From Geminisphaera colitermitum TAV2 (GTDB lineage Bacteria; Verrucomicrobiota; Verrucomicrobiia; Opitutales; Opitutaceae): a DNA stretch of 64,000 nt. The translations under genes and the position numbers were made by a program. The stretch covers positions 1-64,000 of the forward strand of contig NZ_ABEA03000195.1 in assembly GCF_000171235.2 (NCBI RefSeq). Reading direction: 5' to 3'. The notes under the pieces were generated by a model. The model did not search any database. It was not told the DNA's origin and saw nothing but the letters and a program-made list of their open reading frames with translations. Positions 44,891 through 63,166 of this stretch are shown here, one piece after another (position 1 is the first letter of the stretch; each line of letters opens with the position of its first letter).

Positions 44891-46049
44891 CGGCACCCGT
44901 CTCAACCACTCCCAACGTCTGACCCGGTATCAGATTAGGAATGACAAAGGTCGATTCCAACGTGGACTGTCCCGCCGCCACCTTTTGCACAAGGCGGGCA
45001 ATGGACTTCGCCAGCGAGCGAATATCGAACACATAGCGCGCCGGTTCCGGCGTGCAATTTGCCAGATACGGATCGGCGTCGCGGCACACCAGCGACACCT
45101 CGCCCGGCACATCAATGCCCTGGCGGAGCAAGTGCGTTTGCACCGTGAGAAAACACGCGGGATCGGCGATCAACCACGCCGTCGGACGCGGGCTCCTCGC
45201 CAGCAACCGGTCCGCCAGCCGGCACAAATCCGCCACCGTGCCATCATGGTGCGCCACACTTGCGACCGCGTCCTGCCCCCCTGCGGTTCCCGCGCCCTCC
45301 AGAAAACCAACGCGACTCTCGATATCCCCGCCCCGTTCCTGCCGGTTGAGCACAAACACCAGTTGCCGGTGCCCCAGCCGAAGCATTTGCGTTGCCGCGT
45401 GGTGACACGACGCGCGGTAGTTGAAATCCACATGCGGCAGGCTCCCCGCCTCATGCAACGTGCCCACGATCACCGCCCGCAACCGCTGACCCACGCACCA
45501 CCGCTGCATGGCCGGGCTTGAGTAGGGCAACACCCAGCAATCATGCCGGACCGACGCTGCGAGTTTCCGAAAATACGCCAGAGCCGTTGCGTTGCCCGCG
45601 AATTGTTTGTGATAAACCTGCATCGAGATTCCCCGTTCGTAGAGAATCCGGCGCAGATCATCGATCCATAGAATCGTGCGATGCCGCAGATGCTCCATTT
45701 CAAGCGGCAGCAGCAAGCCCACCGAAGCTGCGCGCCCGCCGCTGCTCCCTCCCCCCCCCCCCCCGATTGCATTTGCCCGCGCCCCCACCCTTGCATCGCT
45801 GCTGCCCCGCCGCCGCCGCTTCCGTGCCACCTGCGTTCCCTGCCGACTGCGCTCCGCAACCCAACCCTCCTGCTGCAACGTTTCCAACGCCGCCCGCACC
45901 GTCCGCCTGCTAACCCCAGCCTGTTCAGCCAGCACGCGCTCTCCCGGCAGTTGCCCCGCCCACTCCCCCGCCTGTAAACGCTCCCGCAAGTATTCCGCGA
46001 TTTGGGTGGATCGAAGTTGATAGGGGCGGCGGGAAACAGTGTTCGGCAT
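44865..46049 (-). CDS. GntR-type regulator with periplasmic-binding-like sensor (regulator 1)
   Basis: Protein of 394 residues. Winged HTH of GntR type at residues about 12-76 (STQIAEYLRERLQAGEWAGQ, LPGERVLAEQAGVSRRTVRA, LETLQQEGWVAERSRQGTQV), a basic Gly-rich linker coded by a C14/G14 run, and a LacI-like ligand domain (SVGLLLPLEMEHLRHRTILW, MLRLGHRQLVFVLNRQ, VSLVCRDADPYLANCTPEPA). Paralogue of the regulator at 46690. A 19-bp near-palindrome begins on its start codon, so autoregulation is likely; the same element marks the genes downstream. Ligand unknown. Confidence 0.88.
   Translation of the reverse strand: MPNTVSRRPYQLRSTQIAEYLRERLQAGEWAGQLPGERVLAEQAGVSRRTVRAALETLQQEGWVAERSRQGTQVARKRRRRGSSDARVGARANAIGGGGGGSSGGRAASVGLLLPLEMEHLRHRTILWIDDLRRILYERGISMQVYHKQFAGNATALAYFRKLAASVRHDCWVLPYSSPAMQRWCVGQRLRAVIVGTLHEAGSLPHVDFNYRASCHHAATQMLRLGHRQLVFVLNRQERGGDIESRVGFLEGAGTAGGQDAVASVAHHDGTVADLCRLADRLLARSPRPTAWLIADPACFLTVQTHLLRQGIDVPGEVSLVCRDADPYLANCTPEPARYVFDIRSLAKSIARLVQKVAAGQSTLESTFVIPNLIPGQTLGVVETGAAISPPPRP
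45751..45764. repeat. C14 homopolymer in GntR linker
   Basis: G14 on the coding strand, between the DNA-binding and sensor domains. A slip would leave a DNA-binding domain without a sensor. Confidence 0.9.
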
Positions 46050-47864: not shown

Positions 47865-49568
47865 ATGTTCGGACTTCAATGGCAAGACTTTCTGGTCATC
47901 GTGGCTTACCTCGTTATCGTAACCATCATCGGCGTGTGGATGGGAAAACGGGTGCACAACATGGGGGATTTCGCGATGCCGCGCACCTTCGGGAAAATCC
48001 TGATGATTTTCTTTTCGTTCGGCACGGGCACCAATTCCGACCAAGCCGTGGCCGTCGCCGCCAAGAGTTACACCAATGGCATATCGGGCATCTGGTATTC
48101 TTGGTTGGGAATCTTCACGACGCCGTTTTTCTGGATCATCGCGCCGATCTTCCGGCGGCTCCGCGCCGTGACCACGGCGGATGTTTTTGAGGCGCGCTTT
48201 GGCCGGAGCATGGCCTGCCTCTATGCGTTTCTGGGCTTCACAAAGCTGATGTTCAGCATCGGTTTGAGCCTGAAGGGAGGCGCGATCATGCTCACGGCGG
48301 TTTCGGGCGGGGCGATCTCCGGTGATGTCTCCATTTTTGTCCTCACGGTCCTCTTCGTTCTCTACGGCACGGTGGGAGGACTCTCCGCGGCAGTCATGAC
48401 CGACCTGATTCAGGGGCTTATGACGATCGCGTTTTCCTTCATGCTGCTGCCATTGATTCTGAATTCAATCGGCGGGCTGGAAGGGATCCGAAGCTCCATC
48501 GACAATCCGGAATTTTTCAACCTCTTGTCCAATGAACAAATCGGTCTGTTCTTCGTGACGATGCTGGGAATCTTGGGACTGCTGATGGTGATCGGCGCCC
48601 CGCATACGATGGGAAATTGTGCGGCGGGACGGAATGAAATGGACGGTGCCGTAGGCTTCATGGTGGGAAGTTTCGTCAAGCGCATCTGCACGGTGGCATG
48701 GGCCTTTGTTGGTCTGGCGGGAGTGGTCTATTTCGCCGGGCGGGAGATCAATCCGGAGGAGGTTTACGGGCAGGTGGCACGGGAATTCCTGCCGCGGATC
48801 GGGTGGGGATTGCTGGGCTTTTTCCTCGCCTCGATGATGGCGGCGATGATGAGCACCTGCGACGCCCTCATGGTCGCGGCGTCCGCACTTTTTACCCAAA
48901 ACCTCTACAAACCGCTGCGCCCGCACCGCTCGGCCAAGCACTACCTTGCCGTGGTGCGTATCTCCGGTGTCGTGATCGTGACCGGCGCGGTGTCCATCGC
49001 GTATCTGCTGCCGGGATTCATTGCTGGCGTGGAGATTTATTGGAAACTCAGTTCGATCATCGGCCTTGCCCTGCTCATGGGCTTGATGTGGCGCGGATTG
49101 ACGCCGGCGGGTGCGTGGGCGACCACGCTGGGCGCATACGGGACATGGCTGCTTCTCTATTATTCTCCCGCCGTCGCATTGATCGCCCGATGCCCGATGG
49201 TCACAGAATGGGGCATCATTAGGCAAAATGCCTCCGGCGTCGCATCGGTATATATGCCCTGGCAGATTCTGTTTTTCCTGATCGCGGGCATTACGTCGGG
49301 AATCGTAGTGAGCCGTTTCACGCGGCAAATTCCACGCGAAAAACTCGATCGTTTCTATGCCCTGATACGGACTCCCATTCAGCCCGGCGAAGTGGTGGAA
49401 GAATCCTGCGTCCTCCCGCGAGGCGTCAATCCGCCAACGCCGCGTCATATTTTCCCCGGAACGTCCATCGAACTGCTCATCCCATCGTCCCGGACGGTGG
49501 CGGGTTTCGCCGCTGGCTGCGCGGGGGTCGTCGCATTGATCGGTGCGGTGGTCTGGATTCTCTCATAA
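47865..49568 (+). CDS. Sodium:solute symporter family transporter
   Basis: Protein of 567 residues with about 13-14 hydrophobic helices. SSS features: WQDFLVIVAYLVIVTIIGVW at the start, the unwound helix area FSFGTGTNSDQAVAVAAKSY, VLTVLFVLYGTVGGLSAAVM-TDLIQG (the typical T-D-x-x-Q-G sequence), and FFLASMMAAMMSTCDALMVA near the second sodium site. The last 90 residues are a cytoplasmic tail plus a final helix. It imports an organic solute with Na+; its position at the head of a sialidase/glycosidase locus suggests a sugar, sialic acid or uronate. Substrate not determinable. Confidence 0.9.
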   Translation: MFGLQWQDFLVIVAYLVIVTIIGVWMGKRVHNMGDFAMPRTFGKILMIFFSFGTGTNSDQAVAVAAKSYTNGISGIWYSWLGIFTTPFFWIIAPIFRRLRAVTTADVFEARFGRSMACLYAFLGFTKLMFSIGLSLKGGAIMLTAVSGGAISGDVSIFVLTVLFVLYGTVGGLSAAVMTDLIQGLMTIAFSFMLLPLILNSIGGLEGIRSSIDNPEFFNLLSNEQIGLFFVTMLGILGLLMVIGAPHTMGNCAAGRNEMDGAVGFMVGSFVKRICTVAWAFVGLAGVVYFAGREINPEEVYGQVAREFLPRIGWGLLGFFLASMMAAMMSTCDALMVAASALFTQNLYKPLRPHRSAKHYLAVVRISGVVIVTGAVSIAYLLPGFIAGVEIYWKLSSIIGLALLMGLMWRGLTPAGAWATTLGAYGTWLLLYYSPAVALIARCPMVTEWGIIRQNASGVASVYMPWQILFFLIAGITSGIVVSRFTRQIPREKLDRFYALIRTPIQPGEVVEESCVLPRGVNPPTPRHIFPGTSIELLIPSSRTVAGFAAGCAGVVALIGAVVWILS

Positions 49569-49584
49569 CCTGATTGCGTTGCCC

Positions 49585-49607
49585 TCCCCCCCCCCCCCCC
49601 CCCCCCC
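49585..49607 (+). repeat. C23 homopolymer directly upstream of BNR-repeat gene 1
   Basis: Twenty-three C, ending 10 bp before the ATG 49618 and leaving no Shine-Dalgarno sequence. The longest run in the window. The paralogous gene at 54513 lacks it. Confidence 0.92.
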
Positions 49608-49617
49608 GCACACACAC

Positions 49618-50775
49618 ATGATGAAATACACAACCTACATCCTCACGCTCGGCGTCCTGATTTCCTGTGCTGCTTTGCAGGCTGAAACCTTGCAGGCAGA
49701 AGCGCCGCTGCCGATTTGGGCGGCGAAAAATCTCGATGGGCAACCGGTGCGCATTGCGGTTCCCGCGCCGAAAGACCTCCGCTTCGCTCATCTGTCTTGG
49801 AACAAGGTGCAGCGCACTCCCAAGGGAACGGTGATTCTGGCTTACACTGCGGGCACCTTTCACGGCAACGATGGCGGGGGAAGTCCCGCCGTCTCACGTT
49901 CCACCGACGGCGGTCGAACCTTCTCGGAGCCTCAAATCATTCGCGAGTTCGGCCCCGGCCGCGATTACACCCAGAGCGGCAACCTGGCGCTCGGCATTGA
50001 CGAGAACGGGAACCTCGTGCTGCTCGCAATGGCTTTCACCGCCGACACCACCAGTCACATCTTCGGCTGGCGCTCGGAGGATGATGGCGTGACTTGGAAG
50101 CCGGTGGATACCAGCGCTCTGGGGCCCAACAAAACAGGATCTGTATTCGGTGATATCGTGTCGGTCGAAGGGCAAGGGCTCATGGTGCTCGGGCATTACC
50201 GGCAAGGCTCGAAGCCATATAACCGAGGCATCTGGCTGTCCACTTCTCAGGATCAGGGACGCACTTGGAGTCCGGCCCGCCGTATCTCGGATGTTCACGC
50301 AGCGGAACCTGTCCTTGTGCAGACTACTTCCGGTCGGTTGCTCGGCTTTTTCCGCAGTCGAGGTGATAAAACTCTGGGCGGCCGGCAATATGTAGGCGTT
50401 TCCGACGACCAAGGTGCCACTTGGAAAACCGAACTTTCCGTTCTGGATTCTGAAGACAACACCCGGTCCAGACTGGCGGCCCCATTCGCGGTTGAGAATC
50501 CCAACAACAAGGGGGAAATCCTCGTGCTCACCACCGAGCGCGGCAAAGTCGGAGAAACGCGGGGACGCATCTGGCTCTGGCGGGGGGACGCGCAGAAACT
50601 GGACTGGAAGCGCGAGCGCGTGTTGCTTGAATTTCCCCACATCCGGGGAGATGCCAACGACGACTTCGGTTATCCATGGCTGCTGCATCTCGAAGGAAAC
50701 CGCTGGCTGATGTACTATTATCATGGCCAAAAAAAGGGTGCCAATCCGCTCTGGGTGACCGAGGTGAAGTTGTAA
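49618..50775 (+). CDS. Secreted BNR-repeat (sialidase-fold) protein, copy 1
   Basis: Protein of 385 residues with signal peptide (YILTLGVLISCAALQA). Six-bladed propeller with Asp-boxes: SRSTDGGRTF, RSEDDGVTW, STSQDQGRTW, VSDDQGATW. The FRIP motif and arginine triad of true GH33 sialidases are not visible, so it may hydrolyse or bind another sugar. Almost identical to the gene at 54513, from which it differs by scattered substitutions and a two-residue insertion (FFRSRGDK versus FFRGDK). It is 49 bp after the symporter. Confidence 0.85.
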   Translation: MMKYTTYILTLGVLISCAALQAETLQAEAPLPIWAAKNLDGQPVRIAVPAPKDLRFAHLSWNKVQRTPKGTVILAYTAGTFHGNDGGGSPAVSRSTDGGRTFSEPQIIREFGPGRDYTQSGNLALGIDENGNLVLLAMAFTADTTSHIFGWRSEDDGVTWKPVDTSALGPNKTGSVFGDIVSVEGQGLMVLGHYRQGSKPYNRGIWLSTSQDQGRTWSPARRISDVHAAEPVLVQTTSGRLLGFFRSRGDKTLGGRQYVGVSDDQGATWKTELSVLDSEDNTRSRLAAPFAVENPNNKGEILVLTTERGKVGETRGRIWLWRGDAQKLDWKRERVLLEFPHIRGDANDDFGYPWLLHLEGNRWLMYYYHGQKKGANPLWVTEVKL

Positions 50776-52457: not shown

Positions 52458-52468
52458 CCCCCCCCCCC
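52458..52468 (+). repeat. C11 homopolymer upstream of FAD oxidoreductase 1
   Basis: Ends 30 bp before ATG 52499, in a pyrimidine-rich leader (cctccacctccgcctccac) without a Shine-Dalgarno sequence. Confidence 0.88.
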
Positions 52469-52498: not shown

Positions 52499-54490
52499 AT
52501 GAGCTCTCTTTCCCACTTTGATCTGGTCGTTTATGGCGCAACTCCCGGTGGCATTGCCTGCGCAGTGCGAGCCGCTCGCGAAGGACTGACGGTTTCGCTC
52601 GTCAGCGTCTTTCCTCATTTGGGGGGAATGCTTACTTCAGGTCTCGGACTTTATGATGCCAATTACACCGGCGAACGCGCGCCGCTCGTGACCGAAGTGT
52701 TCCAGCGAATACTCGCGCACTACGAGGCGGTTGACGGCCGTGAATCGGAGAATTACCGGCTCTGCCAAACCAACCAGACCTTCGAGCCACACGTTGCCGA
52801 AAAGGTGCTCACGGAAATGGTCGCGGGTGAACCGCGCATCAGCGTTTTCAAAGGCTGGCAGGTTACGGGCGTCGAGACATCGGGGAGGACGATCATTGGC
52901 ATTCTGATCGAAGAAATGCACGGAAAGGAACGCCTCCGGCTGCAAGCACGCGCCTTTGTCGATACTTCCTACGAAGGCGACCTGCTGGCGGCGGCGGGTG
53001 CGCCTTACCGCGTTGGTCGCGAGTCGCGGACGGAATACGGCGAACCTCACGCCGGACGGATTTTTACTCGTTACGATGAAAGCCCCGACGGACCGCGCTA
53101 CCCCTACGAAGCCTTGCACGGCTTCATCAAACTAAAGCCCTTCGACCTTTGCACGGGGAGGATTTTCCCCGGCAGCACGGGCGAAGGCGACAATGCAATC
53201 CAAGCCTACAACTTCCGCATCTTCCTCACGCGAGATCCCGCCAACCGCGCACCCATTCCGAAACCCGAAGCTTACTCGCGGGAAAATTACCTCGGCCTGT
53301 TGCAGTCGGAAAACGAGTCGTTGAACATTCCCTATCCGGTCAAAAGCAAATGGCTGGTGGATGACATCCGAAGCTTCAAGTTTCGCAACCACCGGACCAT
53401 GCCGAACCGGAAAATCTCATGGAATCACGGCAGCTTTACCGGCCAGAATCACGAGTATCCCGAGGCGGACTGGTCGAAGCGTCGTGAGATTCTCGAACGC
53501 CACAAACGCCACGAACTGGGCCTGCTTTGGTTTTTGCAAAATGATCCCGATGTACCCGAAGAGGTGCGCGCTCGCGCTTGTGAACTAGGACTCGCCCGGG
53601 ACGAGTTCACCGACAATGGCAACTTTCCTTGGGAGATCTACGTGCGTGAAGCCCGCCGGCTCTGTGGGCGAGCGGTTTTCACCGAGTTGGATGCCAGTCT
53701 CGCTGCGGGTATCCAGCGAACCCCGCCGCATTCCGACAGCATTGGCATCACCGATTGGATGATGGACTCACACGAATGCAGGACTGAGCGGCAACCCGGC
53801 AGTGCCTATGACGGAGCCATCCTCCTGAGTGAACTATCCAGACCTGCCCACATCCCGTTTCGCTGCCTGCTGCCGCCCGATCTGGACAACTTGCTTGTCC
53901 CGGTGTGCCTCTCGGCGACGCATGTGGGCTGGGGCTGCATCCGCTTGGAACCCACTTGGATTCATGTGTCTGAATCGGCGGCTTGGGCCTGCGTGCTCGC
54001 CCAGCGGCGTCAGGAAATGCCGGCGCAGATTCCGGTCGAGGAATTGCAACGGCTGCTTCTCTCGCGAGGCGTGATGATCTCGTTTTTCAACGATTTCGAC
54101 ATGCGCCATGATGCGCCTTGGGTGGAGGCGGTGCAATTCTTCGCCGTGCGGGGATTTTTTCCGACCTACAATGCCGATGCTGATCAGCCGCTGGATGAAG
54201 CAAGCGCCGTTTTGTGGATTCAGGAATTGGCCGGTCTGTTGGCAGGCAAATCCCAAGCATTGACGCTCGCCCGGCAGTTGGCAGCGGTGAGAACGACCGC
54301 GTCAAAAATTGATCCCCTTAGTTTTGCCACGCAGCTTTGTGAGGCGCTTGGTGCAAGTGCATCCGCCGATTGGATACCGGCTGAATTGGCTTCAAGTCCA
54401 AAGCCACTGACCCGAGGTGACGCATGCCGTATCATGTATCGCGCGATGAACGCCCAGCGATCAGAATGCCGCGCCGTTCCTGCAAGTTAA
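52499..54490 (+). CDS. FAD-dependent oxidoreductase 1 (FAD_oxidored family)
   Basis: Protein of 663 residues, no signal peptide. Rossmann start FDLVVYGATPGGIACAVRAA at residues 7-26 with Gly-x-x-Gly-Gly; FVDTSYEGDLLAAAGAPYRV (motif D-x-S-Y-E-G-D of the family), NAIQAYNFRIFLTRDPANR, LPPDLDNLLVPVCLSATHVG near the FAD end. It is full-length and homologous to FAD oxidoreductase 2 at 57601. Members often sit in polysaccharide loci and are thought to oxidise sugars or sugar acids; the substrate here is unknown. Confidence 0.88.
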   Translation: MSSLSHFDLVVYGATPGGIACAVRAAREGLTVSLVSVFPHLGGMLTSGLGLYDANYTGERAPLVTEVFQRILAHYEAVDGRESENYRLCQTNQTFEPHVAEKVLTEMVAGEPRISVFKGWQVTGVETSGRTIIGILIEEMHGKERLRLQARAFVDTSYEGDLLAAAGAPYRVGRESRTEYGEPHAGRIFTRYDESPDGPRYPYEALHGFIKLKPFDLCTGRIFPGSTGEGDNAIQAYNFRIFLTRDPANRAPIPKPEAYSRENYLGLLQSENESLNIPYPVKSKWLVDDIRSFKFRNHRTMPNRKISWNHGSFTGQNHEYPEADWSKRREILERHKRHELGLLWFLQNDPDVPEEVRARACELGLARDEFTDNGNFPWEIYVREARRLCGRAVFTELDASLAAGIQRTPPHSDSIGITDWMMDSHECRTERQPGSAYDGAILLSELSRPAHIPFRCLLPPDLDNLLVPVCLSATHVGWGCIRLEPTWIHVSESAAWACVLAQRRQEMPAQIPVEELQRLLLSRGVMISFFNDFDMRHDAPWVEAVQFFAVRGFFPTYNADADQPLDEASAVLWIQELAGLLAGKSQALTLARQLAAVRTTASKIDPLSFATQLCEALGASASADWIPAELASSPKPLTRGDACRIMYRAMNAQRSECRAVPAS

Positions 54491-54512: not shown

Positions 54513-55664
54513 ATGATGAAAGGCACAACCTACATTCTCGCACTCGGCTCCCTGATTTTCTGTCCTGCTTTGCAGGCTGAAACGTTGCAGGCAGAAGCAC
54601 CGCTGCCGATTTGGGCGGCGAAAAACCTCGATGGCCAACCGGTAAGCATTGCGGTTCCCGCGCCGAAAGACCTCCGCTTCGCTCATCTGTCCTGGAACAA
54701 GGTGCAGCGCACCCCCAAGGGAACGGTGATTCTGGCTTACACTGCCGGCACCTTTCACGGCAACCGTGGCGGGGGAAGTCCTGTCGTCTCACGTTCCACC
54801 GACGGCGGCCGGACCTTCTCGGAGCCTCAAATCATTCGCGAGTTCGGCCCCGGCCGCGATTACACCCAGAGCGGCAACCTGGCGCTCGGACTTGACGGGA
54901 ACGGTGACCTCGTGCTGCTCGCCATGGCTTTCACCGCCGATACCGCCAATCACATCTTCGGCTGGCGCTCGGAGGATGATGGTCTGACTTGGAAGCCGGT
55001 GGATACCAGTGCTCTGGGGCCCAACAAAACAGGACCCGTATTCGGCAATATCGTGCCGGTGGATGGGCAGGGGCTCATGGTGCTCGGGCAATACCGGCAA
55101 GGCTCGAAGCCATATACCCAAGGCATCTGGCTGTCCACCTCCCGGGATCAGGGACGCACCTGGAGCCCGGCCCGCCGTATCGCAGACGTTGATGCAGCGG
55201 AGCCCGTCCTTGTGCAGACTACTTCCGGCCGACTGCTCGGCTTTTTTCGAGGTGATAAAACTCTGGGCGGTCGGCAATATGTAGGCGTATCCGACGACCA
55301 AGGTGCCACCTGGAAAACCGAACTTTCCGTCCTGGATTCCGAAGACAACACCCGATCCAGACTGGCGGCCCCATTCGCGGTTAAAAATCCCAATCGCAAG
55401 GGGGAAATCCTCGTGCTCACCACCGAACGCGGCGAAGTCGGAGAAACGCGGGGACGCATCTGGCTTTGGCGAGGGGACGCGCAGAAACTGGACTGGAAGC
55501 GCGACCGCCTGTTGCTTGAGTTTCCCCACATCAAAGGAGATGCCAACAACGACTTTGGTTACCCATGGCTGCTGCATCTCGAAGGAAACCGCTGGCTGAT
55601 ATACTATTATCATGGCCTGAAAGATGGTGCCAGTCCGCTATGGGTGACCGAGGTGAGGCTGTAG
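54513..55664 (+). CDS. Secreted BNR-repeat (sialidase-fold) protein, copy 2
   Basis: Protein of 383 residues, near-identical to the gene at 49618: same signal peptide plan (YILALGSLIFCPALQA) and Asp-boxes (STDGGRTF, SEDDGLTW, STSRDQGRTW, SDDQGATW). The similarity runs from the ATGATGAAA-like start to the stop. It is 22 bp after FAD oxidoreductase 1. Substitutions are spread evenly, mostly silent or conservative, implying a fairly recent duplication with selection. No C-run precedes it. Function as for copy 1. Confidence 0.85.
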   Translation: MMKGTTYILALGSLIFCPALQAETLQAEAPLPIWAAKNLDGQPVSIAVPAPKDLRFAHLSWNKVQRTPKGTVILAYTAGTFHGNRGGGSPVVSRSTDGGRTFSEPQIIREFGPGRDYTQSGNLALGLDGNGDLVLLAMAFTADTANHIFGWRSEDDGLTWKPVDTSALGPNKTGPVFGNIVPVDGQGLMVLGQYRQGSKPYTQGIWLSTSRDQGRTWSPARRIADVDAAEPVLVQTTSGRLLGFFRGDKTLGGRQYVGVSDDQGATWKTELSVLDSEDNTRSRLAAPFAVKNPNRKGEILVLTTERGEVGETRGRIWLWRGDAQKLDWKRDRLLLEFPHIKGDANNDFGYPWLLHLEGNRWLIYYYHGLKDGASPLWVTEVRL

Positions 55665-57370: not shown

Positions 57371-57484
57371 ATGGAGTGCGGCGATTCATCGCCGCTTTTG
57401 ACGAACCGTTTCAACGGTTCGCCAGTAAGCGTGAAGCGTGCTAAAGCACGCGAAACAAAGCGGCGATGAATCGCCGCACTCCAT
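57371..57484. repeat. 27-bp perfect inverted repeat enclosing two hairpins (cruciform)
   Basis: Arms 57371-57397 and 57458-57484 are exact complements. Inside, GAACCGTT/AACGGTTC (57403-57420) and GCGTGCT/AGCACGC (57436-57451) form two smaller hairpins. The cloverleaf outline resembles a REPIN/MITE; it carries no tRNA consensus (no GG-D-loop or TTC arm). Confidence 0.9.
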
Positions 57485-57497
57485 AGGAGAACCGAGG

Positions 57498-57534
57498 AGG
57501 TCCATTTAATGGACCATACATTTGCCCTTTGAAC
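57498..57534 (+). promoter_or_regulatory. Shared operator-like element, site C
   Basis: AGGTCCATTTAATGGACCA (57498-57516), 10 bp, then CTTTGAAC (57527-57534), upstream of FAD oxidoreductase 2. GGTCCAT and ATGGACC are perfect half-sites. Confidence 0.7.
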
Positions 57535-57600
57535 ATCTCCGGTTCCGGAAATGTTCGGGCATTCCATAAACCGCCCTCACCTTCCCGCGATTCCCGAGCC

Positions 57601-59479
57601 ATGAACATCGGTGCCCATCATTATCACCGCCGCATAAAAACCAACGCAGGGGAAAAACAAGATTTACCGGACCTGGTCGTTTTTGGCGGGACGGCTCCCG
57701 GCATCGTGTGCGCCGTGCGCGCAGCGCGCGAGGGGATGCGGGTTGCACTGGTAACATCGGGCATCCACTTGGGCGGTGCGCTGCCTTCGCTCGGCGCGTT
57801 GGAGACCCACTATCGCGGTGCGCGCTCACCGCTCGTGAGCGAATTCGAAGCGCGGGTGAAGGAGCATTACCGAACGCGCCATGGCGAGGATTCCGAGCCG
57901 TTTCGCGTCTGCACGGGCGGTTCAATGCTCACGTTCGAGCCGCATGTGGCCCAGGAAATTCTCACACGCTGGATCACCGACGAACCGGGCATTCGCTGGT
58001 TGAAAGGATTCACGCCGGTCCGCGTGGAACGCGAAGGCGCGCTGATCCGCGCCGTGGTGTTCGAGGTGACGGAGGCAAAAAAACTGGCGACAGGAGGAAC
58101 ACTGAGGCTTGAGGCGGACGCCTTTGCTGACGGCAGCTACGAGGGCGACCTGATGGCGCTGGCCGGAGCCGGGTTTCGCATCGGACGCGAGGCGCGCACG
58201 GAGTTTGGCGAGCCGAGGGCGGGGCGGGTTTTCACGCGCTGGCTGAACGGCGTTCACCCGCGGGCCGCCGCCGAAGGCCGGCTCAATCTTGTCACCGCCA
58301 AAGCCACCACCTCCGAGCCACTGCCGGGCAGCACGGGCGAAAGCGACGACAACGTGCAAAGCTACAGCTACCGCCTCTGCCTCACAGACGATCCCGCGAA
58401 CCGCCTGCTGCCTGCCTCCCCCCCCCCCCGGCTATGAACGCGAACGCTTCACGCCGATCCTGCTCCCGCCCGCCGAAAAAGAGCGCATGAGACTGCCGTT
58501 TCACCACCGCTTTCTTATCCAGACCCTGCACGAGATGGTGGAGAATGACCACGTCTTCCACGGGCACGCGCTGCCCAACCGCAAACGCAGTTGGAACGCG
58601 ACGAATCTCACCGGCGCAGGCAAACGCTACGCGGCGGCCTCCCCCGCCGAACGCCGCGCCATCGAGTGCGCCCACGCCACCCACGCGCTCGGCCTCATGT
58701 GGTTTCTGCAACACGATCCAGCGGTGCCCGCCGACATCCGCTCCCGCGCCCTCGAATGGGGACTGGCCGGCGATGAATTTGCCGGGACGCAGAACCTGCC
58801 GCCCCAGCTCTATGTGCGCGAGGCGCGCCGACTTGCGGGCCGGGCCGTTTTCACCGAGCACGACGCCCTCGCCGAACCGGGAAGGGAACGCGCCCCGGTC
58901 CACGCCGATTCGATCGGCATCACCGAGTTTTCCCTCGACTCGCTGGCCTGCACCACCGAACGCCTGCCGGGAACAGGCGCATTGTGCGACGGACAACTTT
59001 TCCAGATGGAAAACTCGCGTCCCGGCCAGGTGCCGTTTGGGGTGCTTTTGCCGCGCGAGATCGACAACCTGCTCGTCGTCACCTGCGTCTCCGCGACGCA
59101 TGTCGCTTGGGGCACGATACGGCAGACGCCGACATTGATGCACCTTGCGGAGTCGGCGGCCTGGGCACTGGTGCTCGCGAGGCGTCGCGGTGTGGCTCCG
59201 GCGAACCTCGATGTATCCGAATTTCAACGACACATCGTGAGTCACGGCATCATGATTTCGTTTTTCAACGACTTCGACATGTCCTGCCCCGAGCCGTGGG
59301 TTCCCGCGATGCAACTGCTCGGCATCCGAGGCTTTTTCCCCGATTACGACGCCGCGCCGCACCGCGTGCTCAACGAGGCCGCAGCCCACGACTGGAGCCG
59401 TCGTGCGCCGCATGTCGAGGCAAGCCGGCTCCTTGGCAAAACCCATGCGGAAGCCGCGTCGATGATCGTGGATTCGTAG
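57601..59479 (+). CDS. FAD-dependent oxidoreductase 2, split by a frameshift at a C12 run
   Basis: Start ATG 57601 (MNIGAHHYHRRIKTNAGEKQ). Frame 1 reads LVVFGGTAPGIVCAVRAARE and DGSYEGDLMALAGAGFRIGR, then stops at 58435-58437 right after the C12 run at 58418-58429. The rest is open in frame 2: GYERERFTPILLPPAEKERM, HALGLMWFLQHDP, LPREIDNLLVVTCVSATHVA. Removing one C joins them into about 625 residues, matching FAD oxidoreductase 1 (663). So the gene is off at 12 C and on at 11 (or 14). Phase variation or a sequencing error are both possible. Operator site C is 66 bp upstream. Confidence 0.85.
58418..58429 (+). repeat. C12 homopolymer at the frameshift of FAD oxidoreductase 2
   Basis: The upstream frame ends in ASPPPRL-stop; the downstream frame continues PPPPGYERER. 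A one-base contraction restores the open frame. Confidence 0.92.
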
Positions 59480-59831: not shown

Positions 59832-59848
59832 CCCCCCCCCCCCCCCCC
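59832..59848 (+). repeat. C17 homopolymer upstream of FAD oxidoreductase 3
   Basis: Seventeen C ending 28 bp before ATG 59877; no Shine-Dalgarno sequence in between. Confidence 0.92.
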
Positions 59849-63154: not shown

Positions 63155-63166
63155 CCCCCCCCCCCC
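63155..63166 (+). repeat. C12 homopolymer directly upstream of the GH5 gene
   Basis: Twelve C ending 4 bp before ATG 63171, occupying the ribosome-binding region. Confidence 0.9.

Follow-up and report, generated by a model that had tools for sequence, protein, structure and literature searches.

Contingency loci based on poly-C or poly-G tracts are known in Campylobacter, Helicobacter and Neisseria, where each genome carries a limited set of such tracts, and poly-C tracts as long as the one described here switch genes in other bacteria. The FAD-dependent oxidoreductase gene which we examined resembles these loci in having a long intragenic C or G run at which a single slip can destroy or recover the frame. 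The genome around it is different, however: it contains 1,827 C/G runs of at least 9 nucleotides (906 + 921), and about half of the long runs which were sampled lay outside called genes.

The accessible text of a homopolymer survey of 99 prokaryote genomes reports an excess of short poly-A/T and a general deficit of poly-C/G beyond 2 bases (Orsi et al. 2010, PMC2831843), and an extract from a further paper describes short repeats as depleted in bacteria (PMC12699852). Like the cases covered in that part of the survey, ours are homopolymers which break frames in prokaryotic genes, but the source genome (from which our DNA comes) expands C and G only, to 8–22 nt. The same text describes poly-A genes of Buchnera which are out of frame and from which full-length product is made via slippage. 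Buchnera, as treated there, and Blochmannia are similar to the source genome in having many homopolymers with genes out of frame at them; these are poly-A tracts in shrunken AT-rich genomes, whereas ours are poly-C tracts in a genome of 5.67 Mb and 60% GC. Judging from Opitutaceae bacterium TAV5, a member of the same genus but of another species, the source bacterium presumably lives in an insect. No description of poly-C expansion in Verrucomicrobia or Opitutaceae was found in the open-access literature, a result that argues only weakly for true absence. Frame breaks caused by tracts are familiar; the new element is the scale of the expansion.

The features discussed below are listed in Table 1; "the window" refers to the whole stretch of 64,000 nucleotides which was analysed. 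The first-pass annotation had proposed that the oxidoreductase gene is phase-variable, being split precisely at a C12 tract, with both halves conserved relative to an intact paralogue and with deletion of one C restoring a 625-residue protein. We confirmed the split from the sequence and from PF12831 matches to both halves: the upstream frame (278 aa) stops 5 nt beyond the tract and the downstream frame is then open for 349 codons. The two halves scored 116 and 126 bits against a cut-off of 27, so that the broken gene belongs to PF12831 across the profile, and they were 47% (upstream) and 48% (downstream) identical to the paralogue. The arithmetic of the 625-residue product is also correct. 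Several further disruptions would have counted against the proposal; we looked for a second lesion in the gene and found none, leaving the C12 tract as the sole lesion.

Table 1 Features of the window (positions are those of the whole stretch).
Feature	Position	Strand	Remarks
C14 tract, intergenic	45751–45764	+	No C run longer than 3 in the corresponding TAV5 interval
C22 tract	49586–49607	+	Just ahead of likely start of BNR-type gene
C11 tract	52458–52468	+	30 nt before paralogue start, 9 nt after preceding stop codon
Intact PF12831 paralogue	52499–54490	+	663 aa
Near-perfect palindrome GAACAT-N14-ATGTTC	57531–57556	.	26 bp, upstream of FAD gene; putative operator
FAD-dependent oxidoreductase, upstream half	57601–58437	+	PF12831 positions 1–207 of 416; ends just past C12 tract
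C12 tract where frame breaks	58418–58429	+	CCT in front, GG behind, as typical for the long tracts of the genome
FAD-dependent oxidoreductase, downstream half	58430–59479	+	PF12831 positions 227–415 of 416; different frame
C17 tract	59832–59848	+	Ahead of likely start (MHTIATT...) of next PF12831 gene
C12 tract	63155–63166	+	4 nt ahead of called start codon

We compared the gene to nine orthologues with 66–74% identity, eight in genome contigs and the ninth (68% identity) in the family member G007. The frame was uninterrupted at the C12 site in all nine, the longest C run at that site was at most 7 nt, and the spacing from an NR motif to the following GY or DY was the same number of residues in 9/9 as in the broken gene read across the tract. 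In TAV5 no match to the gene above 50% identity was found. A sole lesion at a slippage-prone tract, together with conserved halves and intact orthologues, indicates that the break is recent or reversible. The gene thus has the slippage-prone tract in an otherwise intact frame that is looked for in a contingency locus, and to this extent the evidence given for phase variation stands; the tract itself is not diagnostic of it, given the number of such runs and the fact that dapL is broken likewise (see below).

The tract belongs to a very large set. C/G runs of at least 12 nt number 1,165 (580 + 585) in the whole source genome, compared with 5 in the closed sister genome, apparently that of TAV5, and with a maximum of 41 among 149 other genomes of the family; among 382 other sampled genomes of the phylum the C/G run count was at most 89. 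Long tracts are therefore not limited to a special subset of genes, as they are in described contingency loci, since runs of at least 9 nt occur genome-wide. In the window there were 85 overlapping C9 matches vs 2.05 expected from shuffles. The C12 tract of the FAD gene shares the properties of the set (C in the sense strand, CCT in front, length within 8–22 nt, lineage-specific), and because this type of tract is common in the genome, phase variation as the sole reading of the break is unproven.

Tract anatomy was described in a sample of 792,310 bases from seven contigs. At length 7 the counts of C and G runs were down to 31 and 34; a second hump followed at 8–17 nt, with a tail to 22 nt, while A and T runs were normal, with none longer than 9. 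In 400 kb of TAV5 the longest C/G run was at most 11 nt. The bases before a long run are typically C at −3 and −2 and T at −1, the T being present in 76%, 73% and 87% of runs of 9–11, 12–14 and at least 15 nt respectively, vs 36% of runs of 4–5 nt.

Placement of the tracts also followed the genes. In gaps of 15–600 nt between co-directional genes, C-sense runs outnumbered G-sense runs by 63 to 9, a sense bias which held for either strand within the same contigs. Replication strand as the cause of orientation is not favoured, as the tract base follows the gene strand within one contig. Between co-directional genes with gaps of 10–1,500 nt, 42 of 68 tracts started within 20 nt after a stop codon, whereas random placement in the same gaps gave 20.0 expected and at most 31 in 5,000 trials. 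It should be noted that our simple gene caller counts tracts on the start side as part of genes (C tracts "near start" numbered 27), which partly inflates the stop-proximal share. Short seeds in TAV5 are already sense-biased (CCTCCC 35, GGGAGG 7). For these two reasons, caller inflation and the sense-biased CCTCC seeds, we do not accept stop-codon clustering as proof of function.

The comparison with TAV5, which has a chromosome of 7,317,842 bp (PMC4358385), set 832 kb of TAV5 stretches against 230 tracts, of which 17 had both flanks aligned. At these 17 sites, some of them possibly paralogous, the longest run of the same base was 2–10 nt in TAV5 vs 9–21 nt in the source genome. Within a 9.4-kb block which is 92% identical to TAV5, tracts of 12, 16 and 12 nt face runs of 10, 5 and 7 nt. 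The two genomes are alike in having C-rich, sense-biased seeds between genes; they differ in the number of long runs and in the FAD gene itself, as given above.

We also examined the frame at intragenic runs of at least 9 nt with a clear coding signal on both sides. It was kept at 51/59 and shifted at 8/59, where random lengths would keep one third in frame (P = 4e−17); selection keeps most coding tracts in frame. Background shift calls at GATC sites were 51/1,712 (P = 0.0005 against the raw 8/59, which was used because the controls were not pruned by reading translations). Two of the shift calls, at C38:46388 and C38:106402, were dropped, as the translations show neighbouring genes. The remaining six breaks are at runs of 12, 13, 13, 12, 19 and 15 nt, that is, at 0/23 runs of 9–11 nt, 4/24 of 12–14 nt and 2/12 of at least 15 nt. 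They affect the FAD oxidoreductase, dapL, an unnamed gene at C135:5791, and genes of BNR type, for a TonB receptor and for an oligogalacturonate-lyase-like protein. Both halves have Pfam support in dapL and in the BNR gene (in BNR below cut-off), as does one half in the TonB receptor and one in the oligogalacturonate-lyase-like gene (below cut-off in the lyase-like gene); for the gene at C135:5791 Pfam supports neither. Scaled from the sample, some 40 genes would be broken genome-wide.

In dapL (TIGR03542), a housekeeping gene of biosynthesis, a C13 tract (C166:79414–79426) separates two halves; the gene is whole in TAV5 and G007, and no other copy over the family cut-off was found in the source genome. 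As dapL is broken in the same manner as the FAD gene, the coincidence of a frame break with a C run is not in itself a sign of regulation. Its state would be explained by wrong consensus lengths, by mixed cultures, by RNA-level slippage rescue or by a substitute enzyme. More generally, either the consensus lengths that are out of frame cannot be relied upon or represent mixtures, or breaks are tolerated genome-wide.

We consider it likely that the break in the FAD gene is an accident of a lineage-wide poly-C expansion by slippage, and that no contingency locus has evolved for the gene. The split has the look of a side effect of C runs getting out of hand across the genome, not of a dedicated on/off switch. 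The FAD locus is ordinary for its genome, and the genome-wide poly-C expansion is the surprising finding. The lineage would have acquired its roughly 1,800 long poly(C:G) tracts after splitting from TAV5, the tracts probably growing by slipped-strand mispairing from short CC(T)CC seeds which were already mostly in sense. In coding tracts, selection holds most lengths in frame, with a minority of longer tracts, including that of the FAD gene, out of frame in the assembly. The FAD gene itself may have undergone a recent one-step slip in some or all cells, which the same tract could undo, and tract lengths would still be unstable at present. Phase variability of the gene is possible, but would not be specific to it. 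Against an accidental origin, the stop-codon clustering (42/68 vs 20.0) does not obviously follow from a purely neutral process.

The alternative with the best claim, although we regard it as doubtful, is that the tract is real and its length was miscalled in the draft, the gene being intact in the cell. This would be consistent with the confinement of breaks to runs of at least 12 nt and with the like break in dapL, of which no second copy passes the cut-off. It is also consistent with the ends of contigs: among 20 contigs fetched from C1–C21, 4 of the 10 which were readable began or ended in a C/G run of at least 9 nt (6 of 18 visible ends), and contigs C65, C135 and C166 also start in C/G runs. 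Assembly therefore struggles at the tracts, and lengths above about 20 nt are probably under-reported. However, 51/59 called lengths, up to 19 nt, are in frame, so that most length calls must be right. Normal A/T runs, this in-frame majority and the positional and sequence order of the tracts led us to reject the stronger idea that the tracts are pure artefact.

Less probable than a miscall is a fixed and very young loss of function, with paralogues covering the role of the gene. The downstream half matches six other places in the genome at E < 1e−30, the nearest 5 kb away, in favour of this reading; against it, the gene is without any second lesion. About equally unlikely, in our view, is that the C:G-specific expansion, unseen on this scale in the other sampled genomes of the phylum, consists of sense, stop-proximal poly(C) elements in the gaps separating co-directional genes, for example Rho- or RNA-binding sites whose length would tune the downstream gene, with dozens of genes including dapL and the oxidoreductase in mixed or RNA-rescued frames.

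True phase variation, in which slippage of the tract would switch the oxidoreductase on and off and be favoured by selection, appears still less likely as a reading of the sequence. The tract holds the only lesion, conservation extends over the two halves and poly-C tracts this long act as switches elsewhere, but the FAD gene is not marked out among the other tract-bearing sites of the genome. It is improbable that slippage of RNA polymerase or the ribosome on the C run yields some full-length protein from out-of-frame DNA: this would account for a tolerated broken dapL and has the poly-A precedent of Buchnera in the available text of PMC2831843, but that precedent does not extend to poly-C.

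Mismatch repair was considered in relation to the expansion. Since the tracts are C:G only and A/T runs are normal, a general loss of mismatch repair would not suffice to explain them. MutS is whole (C222:970–3642, minus strand). The MutL match (C11:39797–40871) covers family positions 1–333 of 555, after which contig C11 ends in the linker; in TAV5 the mutL linker carries two C7 runs where this contig ends. The MutL_C domain is present in TAV5 and G007 and was not found in the source draft, in which contigs under 3 kb are masked as N. We observed separately that MutS is longer than that of TAV5 (alignment length 892 vs 859 residues).

One broken gene alone would be ordinary, but over a thousand C/G runs of at least 12 nt beside a sister genome with five constitute a natural experiment. 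The genome would allow tests of what normally keeps long homopolymers out of bacteria, of the way in which seeds give rise to slippage tracts and of an organism's ability to survive with switchable sites in the hundreds. In genomes of this kind, automated screens for contingency loci will call too many.

Other elements were also seen around the FAD gene. The palindrome upstream, a putative operator, had no second copy in the window or at the other loci examined. At 57371–57484 there is a perfect 28-nt inverted repeat of the GGAGTGCGGCGATTCATCGCCGC type, with arms 58 nt apart; similar sequence occurs at the end of contig C65 and near C122:12222, making it a dispersed REP-like element. The intact FAD paralogue is flanked by two near-duplicate BNR-type genes (49543–50775 and 54513–55664), an arrangement which suggests local duplication.
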